Translations under genes and position numbers: made by a program
Shown: one piece after another, positions 1 to 10,693 of the stretch
How the letters are laid out: every line of letters starts with the position of its first letter
Position numbering within the stretch: the first letter of the stretch is position 1
The notes under the pieces: generated by a model
Databases searched by the model: none
Seen by the model: only the letters and a program-made list of their open reading frames with translations
Told to the model about the DNA's origin: nothing
Assembly (NCBI RefSeq): GCF_004022215.1
Contig: NZ_SAUZ01000002.1
Coordinates: 1 to 64,000, forward strand
DNA from: Paenirhodobacter populi
GTDB lineage: Bacteria; Pseudomonadota; Alphaproteobacteria; Rhodobacterales; Rhodobacteraceae
Length of the DNA stretch: 64,000 nt
Direction of reading: 5' to 3'

Positions 1-503
1 CATACAGACATCTGACGACGACTGGCCCGGACGGGCCAGTGCGCCATGCCACGCGCCGGCTACGTGGAAAACGCGCGCGCCATGGCGCACATCCTCACCA
101 ACTGGCCTGGTTTTGCTCCGCCGCCGTTGCCGACTTTTGCGCCGCCGTTGACACTTGTGCCGCCCTTCACTTTGGAATATATTAAACAATTTCAGCATGT
201 TGCACTGCCCGCAATCTTGCGGCGCGTTTCCGTTGCACAAATCACCTGACAGCTGTGTCCTTAGCTGCAAATGGTAGGCCTCATGCCTGTCTGTCGATGA
301 ACACCGTGACGCTGCCGGCCGGACCGCTCCACCTCACCCCACAAGCTCGGGCCGCTCTGGCCAGAGTGATCCGGCGACGGCCCTTCGCATAGCAGCCGCA
401 AATCCGCATCGTTGTCGATATGGCGGTCGAAGGGCCAAGCGGCGTGATCTTGCGGGCACATCGCAGATACCGCGCCACGGTGGCGCTGGCTGGCCTGCGA
501 CTG
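1..503. other. No supported gene; possible structured DNA
   Basis: I see no convincing gene in this left edge. Several reading frames are open on both strands, but none has a recognisable domain, a good ribosome binding site or a clear start. Bases 21-40 form a perfect inverted repeat with 9-base arms (ACTGGCCCG and CGGGCCAGT) around GA, which could be a terminator stem or a protein site. Bases 165-200 are locally AT-rich. The stretch may hold gene remnants or the regulatory end of a neighbour outside the window. Confidence 0.4.
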
Positions 504-911
504 TTACCCATGACGAACAGGCTCGATATATCGCCCGAATGCGGCGACAATTTCCGTGTCATCTCTCCCGAACCGGTCGGCGGGCGGGCCGCGGAAATCG
601 ACGTGGGCGCGGGTTAGCCAATAGCAGAGCCGAAGGTTGCTGATGCGGGCCGGCTTGTCCTTCAGGATGGCGCCGATCACATCGAAAACACGGCCATTTC
701 TCACGTCGAACTGGAACAGCGGCAACCTGATTTCGCCATTTTTCACAACTGTTACGATGACATCGTCCCGGGCCAAAGCCTGCATGGCACCTTCCGGGTC
801 ATCCGTTTCGATGCGCAACAGCACGCATGCCTGCGACGCATTGATCAGGTCGATTCTGGCCAGGAGGCGCGCCTCGACGCTGGATTTGTCGGTGGAGTTT
901 TCCGGTGTCAT
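504..911 (-). CDS. Hypothetical protein, possible MbcA/ParS/Xre (DUF2384)-type antitoxin
   Basis: This is a 135-residue soluble protein with no signal peptide or membrane segment. I chose the ATG at 911 because an AGGGAG ribosome binding site sits seven bases upstream; a longer frame to 950 lacks this. The C-terminal third (YWLTRAHVDF, then PADRFG and an acidic helix ending in IEP) resembles the toxin-binding C-terminal domain of MbcA/ParS/Xre antitoxins, which pair with RES-domain toxins. That is a resemblance seen by eye, not a search result. The middle part (LPLFQFD, GRVFDVIGAIL) also fits those proteins. A short ORF ends two bases before this start, so the two may be translated together. 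I found no RES toxin downstream, so if this is an antitoxin its partner is missing, unusual or outside the window. Confidence 0.5.
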   Translation of the reverse strand: MTPENSTDKSSVEARLLARIDLINASQACVLLRIETDDPEGAMQALARDDVIVTVVKNGEIRLPLFQFDVRNGRVFDVIGAILKDKPARISNLRLCYWLTRAHVDFRGPPADRFGRDDTEIVAAFGRYIEPVRHG

Positions 912-912
912 C

Positions 913-1065
913 CTATTTCTCCCTGGGAACGGCGCGGTTCCGCGTCTCATCGAAGCTGAATCCGGCCGGCAGCGTGACCTCCCTGACGGAAAGATAGCCG
1001 CCGATGCATTCGTAAGCGTTCTCAGACGACCACGGGCTGCTTAGCTTGACGGCCTGAAGTTCCAT
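913..1065 (-). CDS. Small hypothetical ORF, translationally adjacent to the antitoxin-like gene
   Basis: This is a 50-codon frame from an ATG at 1065, ending in a TAG directly before the next ATG at 911. The ribosome binding site of the next gene lies inside its last codons, an arrangement typical of coupled gene pairs. The frame can be extended to 1344, overlapping the HAD gene, but neither start has a strong ribosome binding site. I recognise no domain. It could be a small partner of the downstream protein, the C-terminal end of a decayed gene, or no gene at all. Bases 1066-1315 above it show nothing else. Confidence 0.25.
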   Translation of the reverse strand: MELQAVKLSSPWSSENAYECIGGYLSVREVTLPAGFSFDETRNRAVPREK

Positions 1066-1315
1066 GGGAGGAGATCGTCTAGTCGCCAAGGCTCTGTCTT
1101 TGGCCTCCTGGAGAGGAGGTCGGACAAAACGCGAAGCCGGGCCTGATATGGTCCGGAAGGGCATATCGGAACCGACATCCCGCCAAGCTGCGTTGTCAGC
1201 CTGAACTTCGGCGCGTCGGCTATTCCTTCGAATAGCTACCCAAAGCATGGCGGATCTTGCTCGATGAAGGCGATGACAGGTCCGGCCCGGAAGGTGCCGC
1301 CCGCACCATGTGTCG

Positions 1316-2041
1316 TCATTCGTCCTCTTCATCTGGCGGCACATCCGGAACCACCCGGTTCAGGATATGGAGGGCGGCATCGACATTGTCACGTGCGGCG
1401 CGGCGGCGCATCAGTTCATGGCCTTCTGCGTCTTTGAGCAGGACCGGAACCTCGGAAAGGCTTCGGATCCGACCTGGGGCCGGCACCGCCATTGACAGCG
1501 CCAGATGCAGGGTGGGCATCCCGGCCGCCGCCGCGCCCCGAATATCGGAACCGAGGCTGTCGCCAATCATGAGAATCCTTGAGGCGGGCAGGCCCAGCCT
1601 GGTTCGCAGCACCTCGAAGAATTCGCGCTCCCGCTTCAGCGCCCGCATATCCGGATCGCAGGAGAAACAGGTGACGTCGACCCGATCGCCCAGCAGCCGT
1701 TCCACGGCCGGAACATAGGCCGGAGCCAGATTGCTGGCCAGCGCCAGTCGGAACCCGGTTGCTCGCAGGCGACGAAGAACATCGGGGGCATCCGGCGCCA
1801 CCTCGATCGATGCGATTTCGGCATCCAGATCGCGGCCCCATTCCGGTCGGAATTCCACCCCGCAGGCCGCAGCAAACGCCTCGATCGTGGGGATGGGCTC
1901 GCGGCGCGGGTCGAGTTTCAGGCTACCGCCTTTTCGGCGCGCTTCGGCCAGCAGCGCTTTCCAGGGATTTCGGGGAGAGCGGATATGCAGGAGCGTGCCG
2001 AAGCAGTCGAAGGCCACGGCGCGGATAGCTTTCATCGGCAT
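1316..2041 (-). CDS. HAD-superfamily hydrolase
   Basis: This is a 241-residue haloacid-dehalogenase-like hydrolase, most likely a cytoplasmic phosphatase acting on a small phosphorylated metabolite. Motif I is AFDCFGTLL, with the nucleophile Asp12; the usual second Asp is replaced by Phe-Gly-Thr, as in many subfamily IA members. Motif II is LASN, the motif III lysine lies in ALKRE, and motif IV is GDSLGSD. An insertion between motifs I and II supplies the cap domain. The ATG at 2041 is preceded by AAGGGAG at seven bases. That ribosome binding site lies in one arm of an 11-base inverted repeat (2042-2052 with 2090-2100), so translation may be controlled by structure. The substrate cannot be told from the sequence. 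It lies downstream of the phosphoesterase/AAA+ block on the same strand but is separated from it by palindromes. Confidence 0.85.
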   Translation of the reverse strand: MPMKAIRAVAFDCFGTLLHIRSPRNPWKALLAEARRKGGSLKLDPRREPIPTIEAFAAACGVEFRPEWGRDLDAEIASIEVAPDAPDVLRRLRATGFRLALASNLAPAYVPAVERLLGDRVDVTCFSCDPDMRALKREREFFEVLRTRLGLPASRILMIGDSLGSDIRGAAAAGMPTLHLALSMAVPAPGRIRSLSEVPVLLKDAEGHELMRRRAARDNVDAALHILNRVVPDVPPDEEDE

Positions 2042-2100
2042 ATCGGGTCTCCCTTGGGAAGGCTCAATTCATATGGTCGCCATGAAGACGGAGACCCGAT
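2042..2100 (-). promoter_or_regulatory. Leader inverted repeat overlapping the HAD gene ribosome binding site
   Basis: Bases 2042-2052 (ATCGGGTCTCC) and 2090-2100 (GGAGACCCGAT) are perfect 11-base inverted repeats 37 bases apart, immediately before the HAD start codon. On the minus-strand transcript the proximal arm contains part of the ribosome binding site, so pairing would hide it. This could be a translational switch or simply an operator. I recognise no named riboswitch. Confidence 0.5.
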
Positions 2101-2106
2101 AAGGTC

Positions 2107-2140
2107 ATCTCCCTGATCAGGAGATATTCCCCAATTGGGG
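2107..2140. promoter_or_regulatory. Two adjacent palindromes between the HAD gene and the phosphoesterase
   Basis: Bases 2107-2125 read ATCTCCCTGATCAGGAGAT, with six-base perfect arms around a CTGATCA centre. Bases 2129-2140 are the perfect palindrome CCCCAATTGGGG. Together with the leader repeat at 2042-2100, three inverted repeats fill a 127-base gap. They could be dimeric repressor sites, the terminator of the upstream minus-strand operon, or both. No T-tract follows them, so a classical terminator is less likely. Confidence 0.4.
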
Positions 2141-2168
2141 GCGATAACACCGACGCCTATCAAAATCA

Positions 2169-2735
2169 TCACGGCGCACTTCGTGGCTCGACCTGATGCC
2201 AATGCGCGTTTACCGGCAAGCGTTCGGCCCGCCGCTCGATCTCCGGCAGCGTGACTGGCCGGAAATCCCAGACATCGACCCCGACATTGACGCTGTTTCG
2301 CGACCCCTGCCAGTTCTGATGGACATGGCCGAAAAGCTGCAGACCCTGGTGCCGGGCACCGGGCCAGGTGATCATCGGGTAATGGCAGAGGAACAGCCGC
2401 CGGCCATCGACGGTGATGTCCGCCGTCTCCGTCACGCTGCCCCACGGCAGGTCGCAGACCCATGGCTGATCGTGGTTGCCGCAGATCAGGTGCTTTCGGG
2501 CGGGAATGGCGTGGAATATAGTCCGGACTTCGCGCCGCTGCGCATCCGTCGCCTTGCCCGCGCTGAAATCCCCCAGAATCCAGAGATCGTCATCTGGCTG
2601 AACCCGCGCGCGGCATTCACCCAGAAGACGGGCATTCATCGCGGCAATATTTACGAAAGGACGATCACAGAAGCCAATGATCCTGTCATGGGCGTAGTGC
2701 GGATCTGCGGTGAACCAATGCATGTCAGCGCTCAT
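2169..2735 (-). CDS. Calcineurin-like metallophosphoesterase (small, phage-type)
   Basis: This is a 188-residue protein covering little more than the bare metallophosphoesterase fold. The metal ligands are visible in order: TADPHYAH (Asp11, His13), GDF (Asp56), GNHD (residues 86-89), CHYP (His118) and GHVH (136-139). The compact type, starting with a FT-D-H-GH-like strand and a CDRPF segment, is common in phages and plasmids. It may hydrolyse phosphomonoesters, phosphodiesters or nucleotides; the sequence does not say which. Its start overlaps a 25-codon ORF by 11 bases, and it lies last in an apparent operon with an AAA+ ATPase and a second phosphoesterase. That two unrelated metallophosphoesterases sit in one operon suggests a pathway with two hydrolytic steps or one enzyme plus a regulator; this is inference. 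Confidence 0.85.
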   Translation of the reverse strand: MSADMHWFTADPHYAHDRIIGFCDRPFVNIAAMNARLLGECRARVQPDDDLWILGDFSAGKATDAQRREVRTIFHAIPARKHLICGNHDQPWVCDLPWGSVTETADITVDGRRLFLCHYPMITWPGARHQGLQLFGHVHQNWQGSRNSVNVGVDVWDFRPVTLPEIERRAERLPVNAHWHQVEPRSAP

Positions 2736-2802
2736 CTTCAGAGGCGGCGATCGCGTTCAGCAACTTGTCATACCAGATGCGCTGGTCGGGGGAGGGTTTC
2801 AT
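2725..2802 (-). CDS. 25-residue small ORF between the AAA+ ATPase and a phosphoesterase
   Basis: Reading the minus strand from the ATG at 2802 gives 25 codons, beginning MKPSPDQRIWYDKLL and ending TGA at 2725. An AGGA ribosome binding site lies eight bases upstream. The stop overlaps the start region of the downstream phosphoesterase (ATG at 2735) by 11 bases, a layout that would couple their translation. The peptide is predicted to be soluble and helical. I recognise no family. It could be a real small protein or a translational coupler for the phosphoesterase. It lies 42 bases after the AAA+ gene on the same strand. Confidence 0.5.
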   Translation of the reverse strand: MKPSPDQRIWYDKLLNAIAASEDER

Positions 2803-2844
2803 AGGGGTGTTCCTGCGTGGCAAATGAATAAACACCGCGCCGCT

Positions 2845-3948
2845 TCACTGCAGCAACGGTCGCTGTTGCATCTGTTCGGCCCGGTCGAGCATGCGCAGCA
2901 CGGTGCGCAGGGTCGGCAGGCGATCCTGCCGTTCGGCCCATTCCAGCGCGGCCCGGATAGCGTCGATCGCCTCGGGCGAGAGGCCCCGCCGTGCGCCCTC
3001 ATGGGCCGCAAACCCCAAAAGGTGTGCCAATGTCGGCGAAGCGAGCCGGATCGGCGGGCATCGGCTGAGCAGCGGATCCGGCAGCAGGCGGTAATTGTTC
3101 GAGGTCAGCACCCAGATGATCCAGCCCATGTCGAACGGCAGCTCGAAATAGGGGCAGGTCCAGTTCCGGGCGCTGAGCGGCTCGAGCAGCGGCAGCAGCG
3201 CCGCGGTCAGATCGAACGACCGGCCCTTGTCGGACTGCGCCGTTCCGGCCTTTTCCACCTCGTCGACCACCACAACCGGGTTCGCCACCCGCTCGGTCAG
3301 GATCAGGTTCACAAGCCGCCCCGGCGCCGAATTGCCCCAGCCGCGCTGGCTGCCGACCAGGCCGAAGGAGGCGTTCTCGGTGGTGGCGTCATAGACCATG
3401 CCCGGCACGCCGATCAGCGATCCGAGACGCCGGGCCCAGTGGCTCTTGCCGATCCCCGGTGGACCGTCGAGCAGGATCGGCGGCAGCCGCAACCCCGCAT
3501 CGCCACGCTGGACCGAGCGCCGCATCGCATGCCAGACCACCTCGGTCGCCGGGCCCATCCAAGGGAATTCCGCATGCAGCGCGGCGGCCAATTCATCCGC
3601 CCGGTGCTCGTTCGGGACGCCGATCAGAGCGACCCCGTCGCGCAGGGGCATGATCCGTTTCCGGTCCTCGGCCTTCATCCGCGACAGGGGCGATTTCGCG
3701 GTCCGGCGCTCAACGATCCTCTCGGCGCGCTCGCGCAGGCGCTTGGTCTTTGAATAAGGTAGATCGATGCTCTCCAGCATCACTTCGTGCCCGGCCTCAT
3801 CAATGGTGCCATTGGCGTTCAGGGGCGGCTCGATGCCGATCTTCGTGGCAATCAGCCTGACAAGATGCTGGCGCAAGCGCCGCTCGATCACGTCGGCGGA
3901 GAGGTTCGGATCCGGAAAGGGGAACAGGGCGAAGGGAATGCGGGTCAT
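2845..3948 (-). CDS. AAA+ ATPase, Lon-like module without protease domain
   Basis: This is a 367-residue protein. The N-terminal 150 residues are charged and helical, and an AAA+ core follows. Walker A is GPPGIGKS at residues 162-169, Walker B VVVVDE at 225-230, and the sensor-1 region LTSNN near 281-285; a putative arginine finger lies in the segment LLSRC. The stretch between the Walker boxes, ending SAPGRLV, and the VDEVEK that follows recall the Lon ATPase module, but there is no substrate-binding N-domain and no Ser-Lys protease domain. It may therefore remodel a partner protein. The start at 3948 has GGAG seven bases upstream, in the same context as the start of the DUF-like gene at 5217. 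It sits 73 bases after the larger phosphoesterase and 42 bases before the 25-codon ORF. The partner and role are unknown. Confidence 0.75.
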   Translation of the reverse strand: MTRIPFALFPFPDPNLSADVIERRLRQHLVRLIATKIGIEPPLNANGTIDEAGHEVMLESIDLPYSKTKRLRERAERIVERRTAKSPLSRMKAEDRKRIMPLRDGVALIGVPNEHRADELAAALHAEFPWMGPATEVVWHAMRRSVQRGDAGLRLPPILLDGPPGIGKSHWARRLGSLIGVPGMVYDATTENASFGLVGSQRGWGNSAPGRLVNLILTERVANPVVVVDEVEKAGTAQSDKGRSFDLTAALLPLLEPLSARNWTCPYFELPFDMGWIIWVLTSNNYRLLPDPLLSRCPPIRLASPTLAHLLGFAAHEGARRGLSPEAIDAIRAALEWAERQDRLPTLRTVLRMLDRAEQMQQRPLLQ

Positions 3949-4021
3949 GGCGAATCTCCGGACATGAGGGGGCCGTCAGTCGGGGGATCCCGCCTGCGCA
4001 AAAGAGTTGGGATCGGGAACG

Positions 4022-4810
4022 TCAGGCGCCGGTGAAGATCAGGCCGCGCAGCAGGAGGTCTGTCTCCTCGCCTTCGGGCACCTCGTCGGGCGTGCCGAGC
4101 GAGACGTTGATGACCGGCACGCCGTGGATCTGGGCGGAGAGCGGCCGATGCGTGTGGCCGAAGAACCAGTAATCGGGCCGGTGCGCGCCAATCCAGTCCT
4201 CCAGCTCGGAGGCAAAGGCCGGGCTGAGGCCCGAGAGCGGCCCCGAAACGGTTGCGCTCGGAGCGTGGTGCGTGACGATGACCGTCTGGCCGGGCCAGGG
4301 TTTGGTAATCTCCCGGGTCAACCAGTGGAGATGATCGTGGTGGATCGCGGCAGTATCCTCGGGGGTGAGGAGTTCACCGTCTGCCCCGCAGATCCGGGCA
4401 TAATCCGGCATTGCCATCGCGGCCCGTGCCATGGCCGTCTCGGTGTCGCCCATCAGCGCAAAATCGGTCCAGAGCGTGCAGCACAGAAGGCGCGTGGTGC
4501 CGAAGGTCAGGACCTGATTCTGGGCGAAGTTCGCCCCGGCGCCCTCAGTAATCCGAAGCAGCAGCCTGTCGTCGAGCCTGGCGCCATAATAATCGTGATT
4601 GCCCGGAATGACCCTGATCCGTTCCGTCGCGACCAGCCGCGTGAGCCGGGCCAGCGCCGGAGACCAGTTCCGGTGCGGATTGTCTGCAAGGTCACCCGCG
4701 ACGATCAGCGCGTCCAGATCGCGCAGCACCGGAACGATCCCGGCGAACGGATCACGCCCCGCTCGGGCCCAAAGGTCGAGGTGCAGATCGGCGGTGATCA
4801 GGATGTTCAT
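4022..4810 (-). CDS. Calcineurin-like metallophosphoesterase (larger)
   Basis: This is a 262-residue metallophosphoesterase. The metal-binding motifs appear in the expected order: ADLHLD (Asp8, His10), AGDL (Asp40), GNHD (residues 70-73), THHAP and FGHTH. It is cytoplasmic, with no signal peptide. It differs clearly from the 188-residue phosphoesterase in the same operon, having an insertion around residues 110-170, so the two are unlikely to be recent duplicates. The start codon overlaps the stop of the upstream gene by four bases, which argues for translational coupling. The substrate cannot be assigned; members of this family cleave nucleotides, cyclic nucleotides, DNA ends or phosphoproteins. 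Confidence 0.85.
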   Translation of the reverse strand: MNILITADLHLDLWARAGRDPFAGIVPVLRDLDALIVAGDLADNPHRNWSPALARLTRLVATERIRVIPGNHDYYGARLDDRLLLRITEGAGANFAQNQVLTFGTTRLLCCTLWTDFALMGDTETAMARAAMAMPDYARICGADGELLTPEDTAAIHHDHLHWLTREITKPWPGQTVIVTHHAPSATVSGPLSGLSPAFASELEDWIGAHRPDYWFFGHTHRPLSAQIHGVPVINVSLGTPDEVPEGEETDLLLRGLIFTGA

Positions 4811-5217
4811 TGGTCTCGCGCCTCCGCAGCCAGACGGCGGATCTCGTCCGCGTGGGCAGCCAAGGCTGCGGCCAGAACATCTGGATTCGCCAGCGGGCGG
4901 AAACCGAACGGGTCGGGGAACTCCCCTTTATCAGGGGCGAGCGGCCGCCCGAGCCGATACCAGCGGCTGAGCGTTCGCGCCCAGCCCGCCTTGGCGTCGA
5001 TTCCGAACAGCTGCGACGTGACGATGCCGGTGTCGTGCAGGAGCGGGTGCCCGGTCACGTCGCCGAAGAGCACGATCCGGCCAGTGAACTCCCGCATCGT
5101 GATCCAGCGGTCGAGATAGGGGGCGTTGGTCAGGTCAGCGACGGTGGGACCGGCCTCGACCGAGGCGATGACGGGGAGATGGGCGGCGACCAAGTCGCGC
5201 AGGTGTTCGGGGAGCAT
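4807..5217 (-). CDS. Hypothetical protein, possibly DUF6634-like
   Basis: This is a 136-residue soluble protein and the first gene of the minus-strand block. Segments such as APYLDRW, VTGHPLL, VTSQLFGIDAKAGWARTLSRWYRLG are like those of a family of uncharacterised Rhodobacterales proteins that I recall as DUF6634; I could not check this. Aromatic residues and conserved Gly/Pro pairs suggest a small beta-rich fold. The ATG at 5217 has GGAG seven bases upstream. It overlaps the downstream phosphoesterase by four bases, so the two are probably made together. No function is known. Confidence 0.6.
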   Translation of the reverse strand: MLPEHLRDLVAAHLPVIASVEAGPTVADLTNAPYLDRWITMREFTGRIVLFGDVTGHPLLHDTGIVTSQLFGIDAKAGWARTLSRWYRLGRPLAPDKGEFPDPFGFRPLANPDVLAAALAAHADEIRRLAAEARDQ

Positions 5218-5743
5218 GGCGGATCTCCGATGCGGGTATGAGGCTCCGATCCGGAAAGCGGGGCTTTCCGGGCGGTGTGTTGCGAAGGGTGGCGGACCCC
5301 GGATCGGCCAGGCTCGGGGGGTTGCGGCCGGTTCGAGGAGTGATCCGGACGATGCGGAGAGGGGGTGGGGTCGTCAAGGTGGGCGAGTTGCCAGCTCTGG
5401 TGGCAGGGTGCTGTGACGGGTCGGCTATGCCGTTTTGGAGGGATTCCGGCAACTTATTGAATCATAATAAGATTTCTGGTTCCTCGCCAAGGGTGGGCGA
5501 TAACTGCCTTGGAAATGGTCGCCGAAATCCCGAAAATGGGTCTCAACTGGCTGTCGTTTCAAAAAGTCGCAACCGTCCGCCGTTTCGCGCGCAAAACGCC
5601 TCGAAATTTGGGGTGCTTTGATACCTATATTTTAAATAACTGATTCTGAATGAAAAAAATGCGCGCTTGGCCCTTGATTTTCACACCCGGATCGCGGAAA
5701 AGCCCCCATCTGAATTCCACAACCCTTCAAAGGGCGATCGACA
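5218..5743. other. Long intergenic region, AT-richer towards rplM
   Basis: These 526 bases lie between the divergent accessory operon and rplM. Frames are open here, but none has a domain or start signal. Bases 5455-5475 hold an inverted repeat (TTATT...AATAA) that could belong to the promoter of the minus-strand operon. From about 5440 to 5670 the composition is clearly more AT-rich than the neighbouring genes. The rplM promoter is in the right part. I see no tRNA or repeat element. Confidence 0.5.
5674..5702 (+). promoter_or_regulatory. Candidate sigma-70 promoter of rplM-rpsI
   Basis: TTGATT at 5674-5679 and GAAAAG at 5697-5702 are 17 bases apart and would start transcription about 35 bases before rplM. 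Rhodobacterales housekeeping promoters keep the TTGA -35 element better than the -10 element, which fits. No other promoter near rplM is clearer. Confidence 0.4.
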
Positions 5744-9926: not shown

Positions 9927-10693
9927 GGCGGGATCCTGAACGGATCGGCGAGGAAAGCGTCGAACGACCCGAGCCAGAGCGCAAGACCGGCGGGTGCCGC
10001 GAGCGCGAGCAGGATCAGCCCGCCGAAGGTCAGCGCCGGCGCCCCGACGAAGGCGACCATCAGCTGCGGCATCGCCCGGTTGATGGCGCCGAGCGCGATA
10101 TTGTAGACCAGCCCGCCCAGCACGAAGGGCATGGCGATCGAGAAGGCCAGCATGAAGGTCTGGCTGACCCCCGCGACCCCCCAGGCCCGCAGGACGTCCG
10201 CATCCGGCAGCCGGCCAAGCGGCATGACCTCATAGGAGGCGATCAGCAGCATCGCCACCTTGACATGCAGCCCCATATGCGTCGCCAGCGCGAGCCCCCC
10301 CATCAGCAGCATCTGGCCCACGGCAGGCTGCGGCTGCCCCTCGGTCCCGCCGAAAAGCTGGGAGAGCGAGATGGATTGCGCGATCATCATCCCCGCCGTC
10401 TGCAGCGCCAGAATGAACAGCCGCAGCATGGTGCCGATCGCCAGACCCACCAGCGCCTCGCCGAAATAGCCGGGGCGGAAGGCGGGGCCGGTGGGCAGTT
10501 CCGTGACCGGCAGGCCGCCGAAGACGATCATGGTGAAGGCGAAGGTCAGGAACAGCCTGACCCGCGCCGGCAGGGATTGCTCGCCAAAGCCGGGCAGCAG
10601 AGCCATCGCGCCGCCGACCCGCAGGAAGACCGGGAAGATCATCCCCAGATAGGTCTGGATCTGGTTCAGCAGCTCGGCCGCGGTCTCGTTCAC
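9923..10693 (-). CDS. fliR: Flagellar biosynthetic protein FliR
   Basis: This is a 256-residue inner-membrane protein with about six hydrophobic segments. With FliP and FliQ it forms the export gate of the flagellar type III system. Family features include the N-terminal FPVFLRVGGAMALLPGFG segment and conserved Gly/Pro pairs in later helices. The start is a GTG at 10693 whose bases overlap the flhA stop (GTGA), and the gene overlaps flhB by four bases at its end, so the three are translationally coupled. Confidence 0.95.
   Translation of the reverse strand: MNETAAELLNQIQTYLGMIFPVFLRVGGAMALLPGFGEQSLPARVRLFLTFAFTMIVFGGLPVTELPTGPAFRPGYFGEALVGLAIGTMLRLFILALQTAGMMIAQSISLSQLFGGTEGQPQPAVGQMLLMGGLALATHMGLHVKVAMLLIASYEVMPLGRLPDADVLRAWGVAGVSQTFMLAFSIAMPFVLGGLVYNIALGAINRAMPQLMVAFVGAPALTFGGLILLALAAPAGLALWLGSFDAFLADPFRIPP

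Follow-up and report, generated by a model that had tools for sequence, protein, structure and literature searches.

Near the start of contig NZ_SAUZ01000002.1 of Paenirhodobacter populi, in a stretch of 64,000 nucleotides that we call the window, a minus-strand gene set encodes two metallophosphoesterases (MPE1 and MPE2), a Lon-type AAA+ ATPase without the protease, a small DUF6634 protein and a partner of 148 residues. In the most likely reading, a Tn7-like transposon has inserted immediately upstream of rplM, and this set is its end module. We hold its identity as a transposon end to be highly probable; our explanation as a whole, in which the ATPase would remodel transposition complexes with the DUF6634 protein as its adaptor and the phosphoesterases as helpers, has in our judgment about an even chance of being right, and the remodeling mechanism taken by itself is somewhat less likely than not. 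The set itself is beyond chance, given that the order MPE1-ATPase-DUF6634-MPE2-148-residue protein is kept in five other loci or genomes (L002, L003, L008, L068, and G208).

The sequence-only reading had already placed these genes in an accessory stretch beside rplM, which holds, but it missed the sharp edge of that stretch, the transposon end at 5561 (Table 1). The same genome has a second copy of the DUF6634 and ATPase genes on contig C29, 89-93% identical in DNA, in which the ATPase gene is frameshifted and both phosphoesterase genes are missing. Identity between the two copies ends at 5567, just beyond the transposon end and an AAAAG pentamer. The C29 copy has AAAAG alone between its module end, TGAAACGACAGCCAGTTGAGA, and an opposite-facing end, TGTAACGACAGCCAGTTGAGA (L047:10158); in the window, AAAAG likewise borders the module end, and the rplM promoter region comes next. 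L002:7680 and L008:5680 have similar ends, as does L013 where its homology begins. The opposite-facing end on C29 leads into genes for TniQ (65.5 bits in Pfam), a TniB/TnsC ATPase (TniB, 51.1 bits), an rve/Mu-type transposase (rve, 30.2 bits, below the cut-off, with Mu-transpos_C at 25.3 bits) and, at the tnsA position, a 232-residue protein without a Pfam match. One 19-nucleotide inverted repeat, a candidate TnsB-type site, is common to both ends: the copy at 10084-10102 of C29 has a 95% complementary inverted counterpart at 10262-10280, in the tniQ-side end. We posit that one transposon would extend from window position 5561 leftwards off the contig and reach C29:10158, flanked on each side by AAAAG, whereas a second, decayed element would lie in tandem on C29, at the AAAAG by rplM.

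Complete elements in relatives display the same architecture. In Ketogulonicigenium, Paracoccus and Gemmobacter, three of them have the module at one terminus and tnsABC-tniQ at the opposite one, bounded by inverted ends and 5-bp duplications (Table 1). The module opens the K. vulgare element and tnsA-tnsB-tnsC-tniQ closes it, the ends reading TGAACCGACGGCCA and TGAAATGACGGCCA; the Gemmobacter element starts 25 bases beyond a ribonucleotide-reductase stop codon, and the ATPase gene is its first recognized gene. When the bases of the right flank were shuffled as a chance control, pairs matching at 11 of 14 positions or better arose at 0.04, 0.10 and 0.06 per shuffle. G181 and G208 have the same gene order and direction, the ATPase gene first and tnsA-tnsB-tnsC-tniQ 12-15 kb on, and in G152 and G193 the ATPase gene directly precedes tnsA. 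Three further end pairs were set aside as chance: one in G125 (11/14 but 12/30), one in G193 (10/14, 14/30), and a second pair in P. aminovorans (11/14 but 13/30).

The association extends beyond these elements. We assembled 56 ATPase loci of the Rhodobacterales type, of which plasmids supplied 13, this genome and its relatives 18 (the window included) and a scan of genome contigs 25; the collection is non-random and partly non-independent, with five loci from G030 alone. Tn7-gene matches lie within 10 kb of the ATPase gene at 14 of the 56 loci, a same-strand IS66 tnpB lies no more than 3 kb away at 12, and the ATPase gene follows a ribonucleotide-reductase gene at eight; at least one of these contexts is present at 31. 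IS66 TnpB is rare, with 60 matches in 27 family genomes (about 111 Mb), and chance would place it within 3 kb of the ATPase gene at 0.18 of 56 loci. At the ribonucleotide-reductase sites (L051, L057, L073, L074, L081, L082, L084, and L086), the open frame of the ATPase starts 130-433 bp past the reductase stop; the identity of the reductase was checked against Pfam in two of the eight, and both element ends were found at one, L084. Could this site, used in several genera, be a recurrent Tn7-like attachment site? Because the 56-locus collection is not random, the count was repeated on 198 family genomes: the ATPase is present in 22, TniQ in 44 and both in 15 (Fisher p 1e-6), and TniQ is found within 25 kb of eight of the 33 ATPase loci in this sample (35 rows merged), where its density would predict 0.40.

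Table 1. Positions of the features discussed, in window coordinates unless a locus or contig is named.
Feature	Position	Strand	Basis or remark
Transposon end, TGAAACGACAGCCAGTTGAGA on minus strand	5541..5561	-	20 of 21 bases identical to the tniQ-side end TGTAACGACAGCCAGTTGAGA on C29
AAAAG, presumed 5-bp target-site duplication, rplM side	5562..5566		same bases at L047:10153-10157
Subterminal repeat GTGGGCGATAACTGCCTTG, candidate TnsB-type binding site	5493..5511		same repeat on C29
DUF6634 protein, 136 aa	4807..5217	-	PF20339, 86 bits
Metallophosphoesterase MPE1, 262 aa	4022..4810	-	PF00149 (Metallophos), 63.6 bits; phrog_1649, 104.7 bits; motifs
Lon-type AAA+ ATPase without protease, 367 aa	2845..3948	-	PF00004, 39.2 bits; NCBIfam 'lon', 62.1 bits
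25-codon open reading frame, stump of a second DUF6634 gene	2725..2802	-	MKPSPDQRIWYDKLLNAIAAS versus MKLSPIDREWFDKVLRAIAAA in L002; remainder deleted
Metallophosphoesterase MPE2, 188 aa, C-terminus truncated	2169..2735	-	phrog_547, 141 bits (best match); motifs
Insert splitting MPE2, with HAD-family hydrolase gene (1316-2041, minus strand)	1012..2184		homology break
Displaced C-terminal tail of MPE2	913..1014	-	ECIGGYLSV.EVTLPAGFSFDETRNRAVP in common with MPE2 of L002
148-aa partner protein, function unassigned	504..950	-	same gene after MPE2 in L001, L002, L003, L008, L013, L068, G208
Contig-terminal repeat, probably insertion-sequence end	1..153		99% copy at C38:18054-18206 (contig end), 89% copy at C67:10462-10613
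K. vulgare element	L146:2562-28655 (26.1 kb)		target-site duplication GTTTC; end identity 12/14, 22/30
P. aminovorans element	L147:2595-34796 (32.2 kb)		target-site duplication ACCTT; end identity 11/14, 23/30
Gemmobacter element	G073:C2, 22084-42525 (20.4 kb)		target-site duplication CATGA; end identity 12/14, 24/30

What the module could do is suggested by the ATPase. Its match to the NCBIfam 'lon' family is confined to residues 157-304, which include GPPGIGKS at 162 and DEVEKAG at 229, and these motifs are retained across copies that are 34-54% identical to the window protein. The AlphaFold2 model has a mean predicted local distance difference test score (pLDDT) of 91.4, and its best 50 Foldseek matches, over 263-369 alignment columns, are all Lon (best E 2.1e-15). 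The Ser-Lys protease domain of Lon was not found with Pfam or NCBIfam, the protein ending at residue 367, in agreement with the sequence-only reading, which had called it an ATPase without protease. Retaining Walker A and B but having no protease domain, the ATPase should pull on proteins without cutting them. Trp204 is invariant across 25 sequences and falls, in the profile alignment to Lon (129 bits), on the Tyr of the RTYIGAMPGK stretch, which we take to be the substrate-gripping residue of the pore loop. We thus envisage a Lon-derived unfoldase without a peptidase that would grip protein via a conserved pore-loop tryptophan.

How such a motor might serve a transposon is suggested by ClpX, which acts on the transposition complex of phage Mu. 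For a CRISPR-associated Tn7-like transposase, one report describes better integration with ClpX; the loss of ClpX lowers propagation about 200-fold in one circuit in Escherichia coli, and the protein is hypothesized to take apart the post-transposition complex (PMC12326709). The kept ATPase motifs, the missing protease and this precedent lead us to propose, tentatively, that the ATPase remodels transposition complexes with the DUF6634 protein as a small adaptor. It could, for example, clear the transposase from a new insertion and so permit gap repair; alternatively, it could tune the activity of the transposase or of TniQ. The two phosphoesterases would be optional helpers with nucleotides or the ends of nucleic acids as substrates. 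A still bolder generalization, which we consider doubtful, is that transposons of at least two unrelated types, Tn7-like and IS66-like, in Rhodobacterales and their neighbors carry their own protease-less, Lon-derived unfoldase, often with a DUF6634 adaptor. Encoded by the element, it would be a counterpart of ClpX that takes apart or licenses the transposition complex and makes the element independent of host factors.

A number of observations weigh against the transposon reading or against the remodeling proposed on top of it. Contigs C12 (the window) and C29 are unjoined in the assembly, and we therefore infer, rather than observe, a single element spanning them. Convincing end pairs with an exact duplication were lacking in five of the eight regions tested (G181, G208, G152, G125, and G193), the intervals searched in G152 and G193 having fitted the gene layout poorly. 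Three of the 14 Tn7 matches are weak or fragmentary, namely L007 (without a Pfam match), L078 (TnsA, 49 bits) and L092 (TniQ, 41 bits), and 25 of the 56 loci have none of the three contexts, perhaps in some cases because of contig ends, which may also explain some of the 25 family-sample loci (of 33) without TniQ within 25 kb. TniQ is absent altogether from 10 of the 33 ATPase-bearing genomes or plasmids searched (G010, G011, G012, G030, G065, G076, G077, W03, W05, and W06), and in two of these, G011 and G065, the ATPase gene nonetheless stands at the ribonucleotide-reductase site. Distant relatives of the ATPase, mostly from beta-proteobacteria, have no profile-recognizable Tn7 or IS66 genes nearby at the 38 listed loci (L093-L142); the ATPase family is therefore not transposon-bound everywhere. 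In four loci of other Proteobacteria (L103, L119, L120, and L123), an MPE1-like phosphoesterase adjoins or lies near a distant Lon-like ATPase, and an older partnership of ATPase and phosphoesterase outside transposons is therefore possible. Remodeling also leaves the two phosphoesterases of the window unexplained. Finally, ClpX was not among the host factors that one screen in E. coli recovered, and its redundancy with other proteases, Lon included, was suggested (PMC12757027).

Other explanations take the same genes in different directions. Tn7-like transposons are rich in defense cargo (PMC8649781), and the module could be ordinary cargo of this kind, an undescribed defense system near the ends of Tn7-like and IS66-like transposons. 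Sets of an ATPase with phosphoesterases would suit the defense pattern, and defense genes do stand near the ATPase gene, namely a short prokaryotic Argonaute (pAgo) with SIR2 in L080, LmuA in L049, and a SIR2 protein with MzaE in L048, which also speaks against the remodeling account. These neighbors vary, however, whereas in the loci examined the ATPase gene stays by a transposon end or transposition genes, frequently without its partner genes, and the PADLOC 2.0.0 matches to four window proteins are weak, the best being 25.9 bits (PDC-S10, residues 29-80 of MPE1). We rejected a named anti-phage system on the strength of that score and regard a defense role in general as unlikely.

The phosphoesterases could instead destroy alarm nucleotides or processed ends that host immunity produces, while the ATPase disarms host proteins on the element's entry into a new cell, making the module a device for establishment or counter-defense. 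Both enzymes score best with phage families and have their catalytic motifs, and the module sits at an element end and has homologs on plasmids; but the ATPase usually occurs without either enzyme, and its profile recovers only generic AAA proteins from the viral collection, 22-28% identical over the AAA core among the best 80 of at least 102 loci. On the last result we rejected a plain phage origin, and we judge the counter-defense role very improbable. Almost as improbable to us is a neutral hitchhiker, an IS66-derived block (tnpA/tnpB-ATPase and others) inserted repeatedly into transposons with no role for carrier or host. Left ends of IS66 type with sharp breakpoints (L048, L049, L050, and L053) and several decayed copies (C29, L008, L010, and the window) fit that idea; the retention of the ATPase motifs across divergent copies does not, nor does the presence of the ATPase gene beside Tn7 genes without tnpA/tnpB. 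We keep to an end module of a Tn7-like transposon as the preferred reading.

The IS66-type relatives themselves have a GTAAGC-type left end before tnpA, with differing flanking DNA (the same four loci); the right end was not found at up to five mismatches to the left end. L080:176-12182 comprises an IS66-type left end, tnpA, tnpB, the ATPase gene, a short pAgo-SIR2 pair and then tnpC, and looks like an IS66-type transposon that carries a defense system. We rejected the idea that an IS66 element carries the window copy, and kept it for relatives only, no IS66 gene having been found in the first 20 kb of the window; the two TnpB matches in this genome are on C36 and C14.

Within the window, the five minus-strand open reading frames of the sequence-only reading are all present, and both overlaps that it reported are exact, the four bases shared by the DUF6634 and MPE1 genes (ATGA, 4807-4810) and the 11 bases shared by the 25-codon frame and MPE2. 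Its picture of a conserved accessory set of unassigned function adjoining a core operon is also borne out, and the roles it suggested, in nucleic acid processing, defense or nucleotide signaling, are conceivable. The boundary it drew at 2169 has to move, since the gene for the 148-residue protein also belongs to the set: its DNA is 73-82% identical in L001, L002, L003, L008 and L013, where it adjoins the same genes. Plasmids of Paracoccus and Ketogulonicigenium encode MPE1, the ATPase, a DUF6634 protein, MPE2 and a 135-residue counterpart of the 148-residue protein, in that order. As to whether the genes occur apart in relatives with no conserved order, the answer is divided: the ATPase gene often lacks the other genes beside it, and full sets keep their order. 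Within 3 kb of the ATPase gene, DUF6634 is found at 13 of the 56 loci, MPE1 at nine and MPE2 at seven.

A motif scan shows that both phosphoesterases keep the metal-binding motifs of the metallophosphoesterase superfamily (DLH, GD, GNHD, THH and GHTH in MPE1; DPH, GD, GNHD, CHYP and GHVH in MPE2). Their best-scoring families are those of phage phosphoesterases, and the Pfam matches of MPE2 fall under the curated cut-offs. The AlphaFold2 model of the DUF6634 protein has a mean pLDDT of 89 (four sequences), with three of five models at 62-73, and a Foldseek search of the PDB at E<=0.001 gave no match. A DUF6634 gene occupies the tnpA place in L002, yet the sole Pfam match of its product is DUF6634 (59.8 bits), and its identification as IS66 TnpA was dropped.

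The window copy is decaying and may therefore no longer work as a whole. MPE2 has 188 residues here and 272 in L002 (K. vulgare); DNA homology to L002 breaks off at 2185 and picks up again at 1011, and the intervening insert carries a HAD gene (PF00702, 63.2 bits) that also has copies on C29. No tnsA, tnsB, tnsC or tniQ was found within the first 20 kb of the window, and an empty site was not found in this genome. In some relatives (e.g., L157 and L158), a gene read as a thioesterase precedes rplM; because the only match to such a gene in this genome is 26% identical, the left flank is not established. Across 17 aligned sequences from upstream of rplM (L155-L171; this genome and 16 congeners), the DNA varies and a promoter-like TGGGGTA...ATACC block is conserved. 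The decayed element on C29 (L047:567-6435) has defense-like cargo, comprising a SNF2-type helicase, HNH, an MzaB-like ATPase (151 bits), a Vsr-like protein and a cytosine methyltransferase; the names Vsr, HNH and methyltransferase were read from the sequence alone.

If our account is correct, Tn7-like elements may carry their own protein-remodeling machine built around a protease-less relative of Lon; a remodeler encoded by some such elements would be a natural, compact candidate for this task and would help to explain how such transposons work in varied hosts. DUF6634 gains a place, at transposon ends, and what looked like an unassigned operon next to rplM is most likely mobile DNA, a caution against taking it for a core function. 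Tn7-like transposons and their defense cargo are already known (PMC8649781 and PMC10293859). The main text of these two surveys does not contain the words phosphoesterase, DUF6634, Lon protease or Lon-like, and a survey of Paracoccus transposable elements, in the part available, mentions IS66 without the words ATPase or phosphoesterase (PMC3281130). Among open papers in PubMed Central (PMC), none was found on DUF6634, none on IS66 with passenger genes and tnpC, and none combining at least three of Tn7-like, Lon protease, AAA+ ATPase and metallophosphoesterase; judged by title, nothing there was pertinent to Tn7, attachment site and ribonucleotide reductase.

Set beside known systems, the elements described here share with Tn7-like transposons inverted ends of the form TG..CA, 5-bp duplications, a fixed order of the tns genes, a common subterminal repeat and, in some cases, defense-type cargo; they differ in the end-proximal Lon-type ATPase module, with or without DUF6634 and phosphoesterases, and in where they lie, beyond a ribonucleotide-reductase gene and ahead of rplM. 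With the IS66 family, several relatives have in common tnpA and tnpB directly before the ATPase gene and a GTAA-type left end, and L080 has tnpC 8 kb downstream, but the ATPase gene occupies the place expected for tnpC. The AAA+ module is that of the Lon protease (LonA) by both sequence and fold, whereas no protease domain was found in its 367 residues, and the ATPase is 27% identical to a Lon-like frame of 836 codons in this genome. ClpX, in phage Mu and in the CRISPR-associated transposons (PMC12326709 for the latter), is likewise a protein-unfolding AAA+ enzyme thought to act after transposition; it is, however, the product of a host gene and belongs to another subfamily, whereas the gene described here would be encoded by the element itself.

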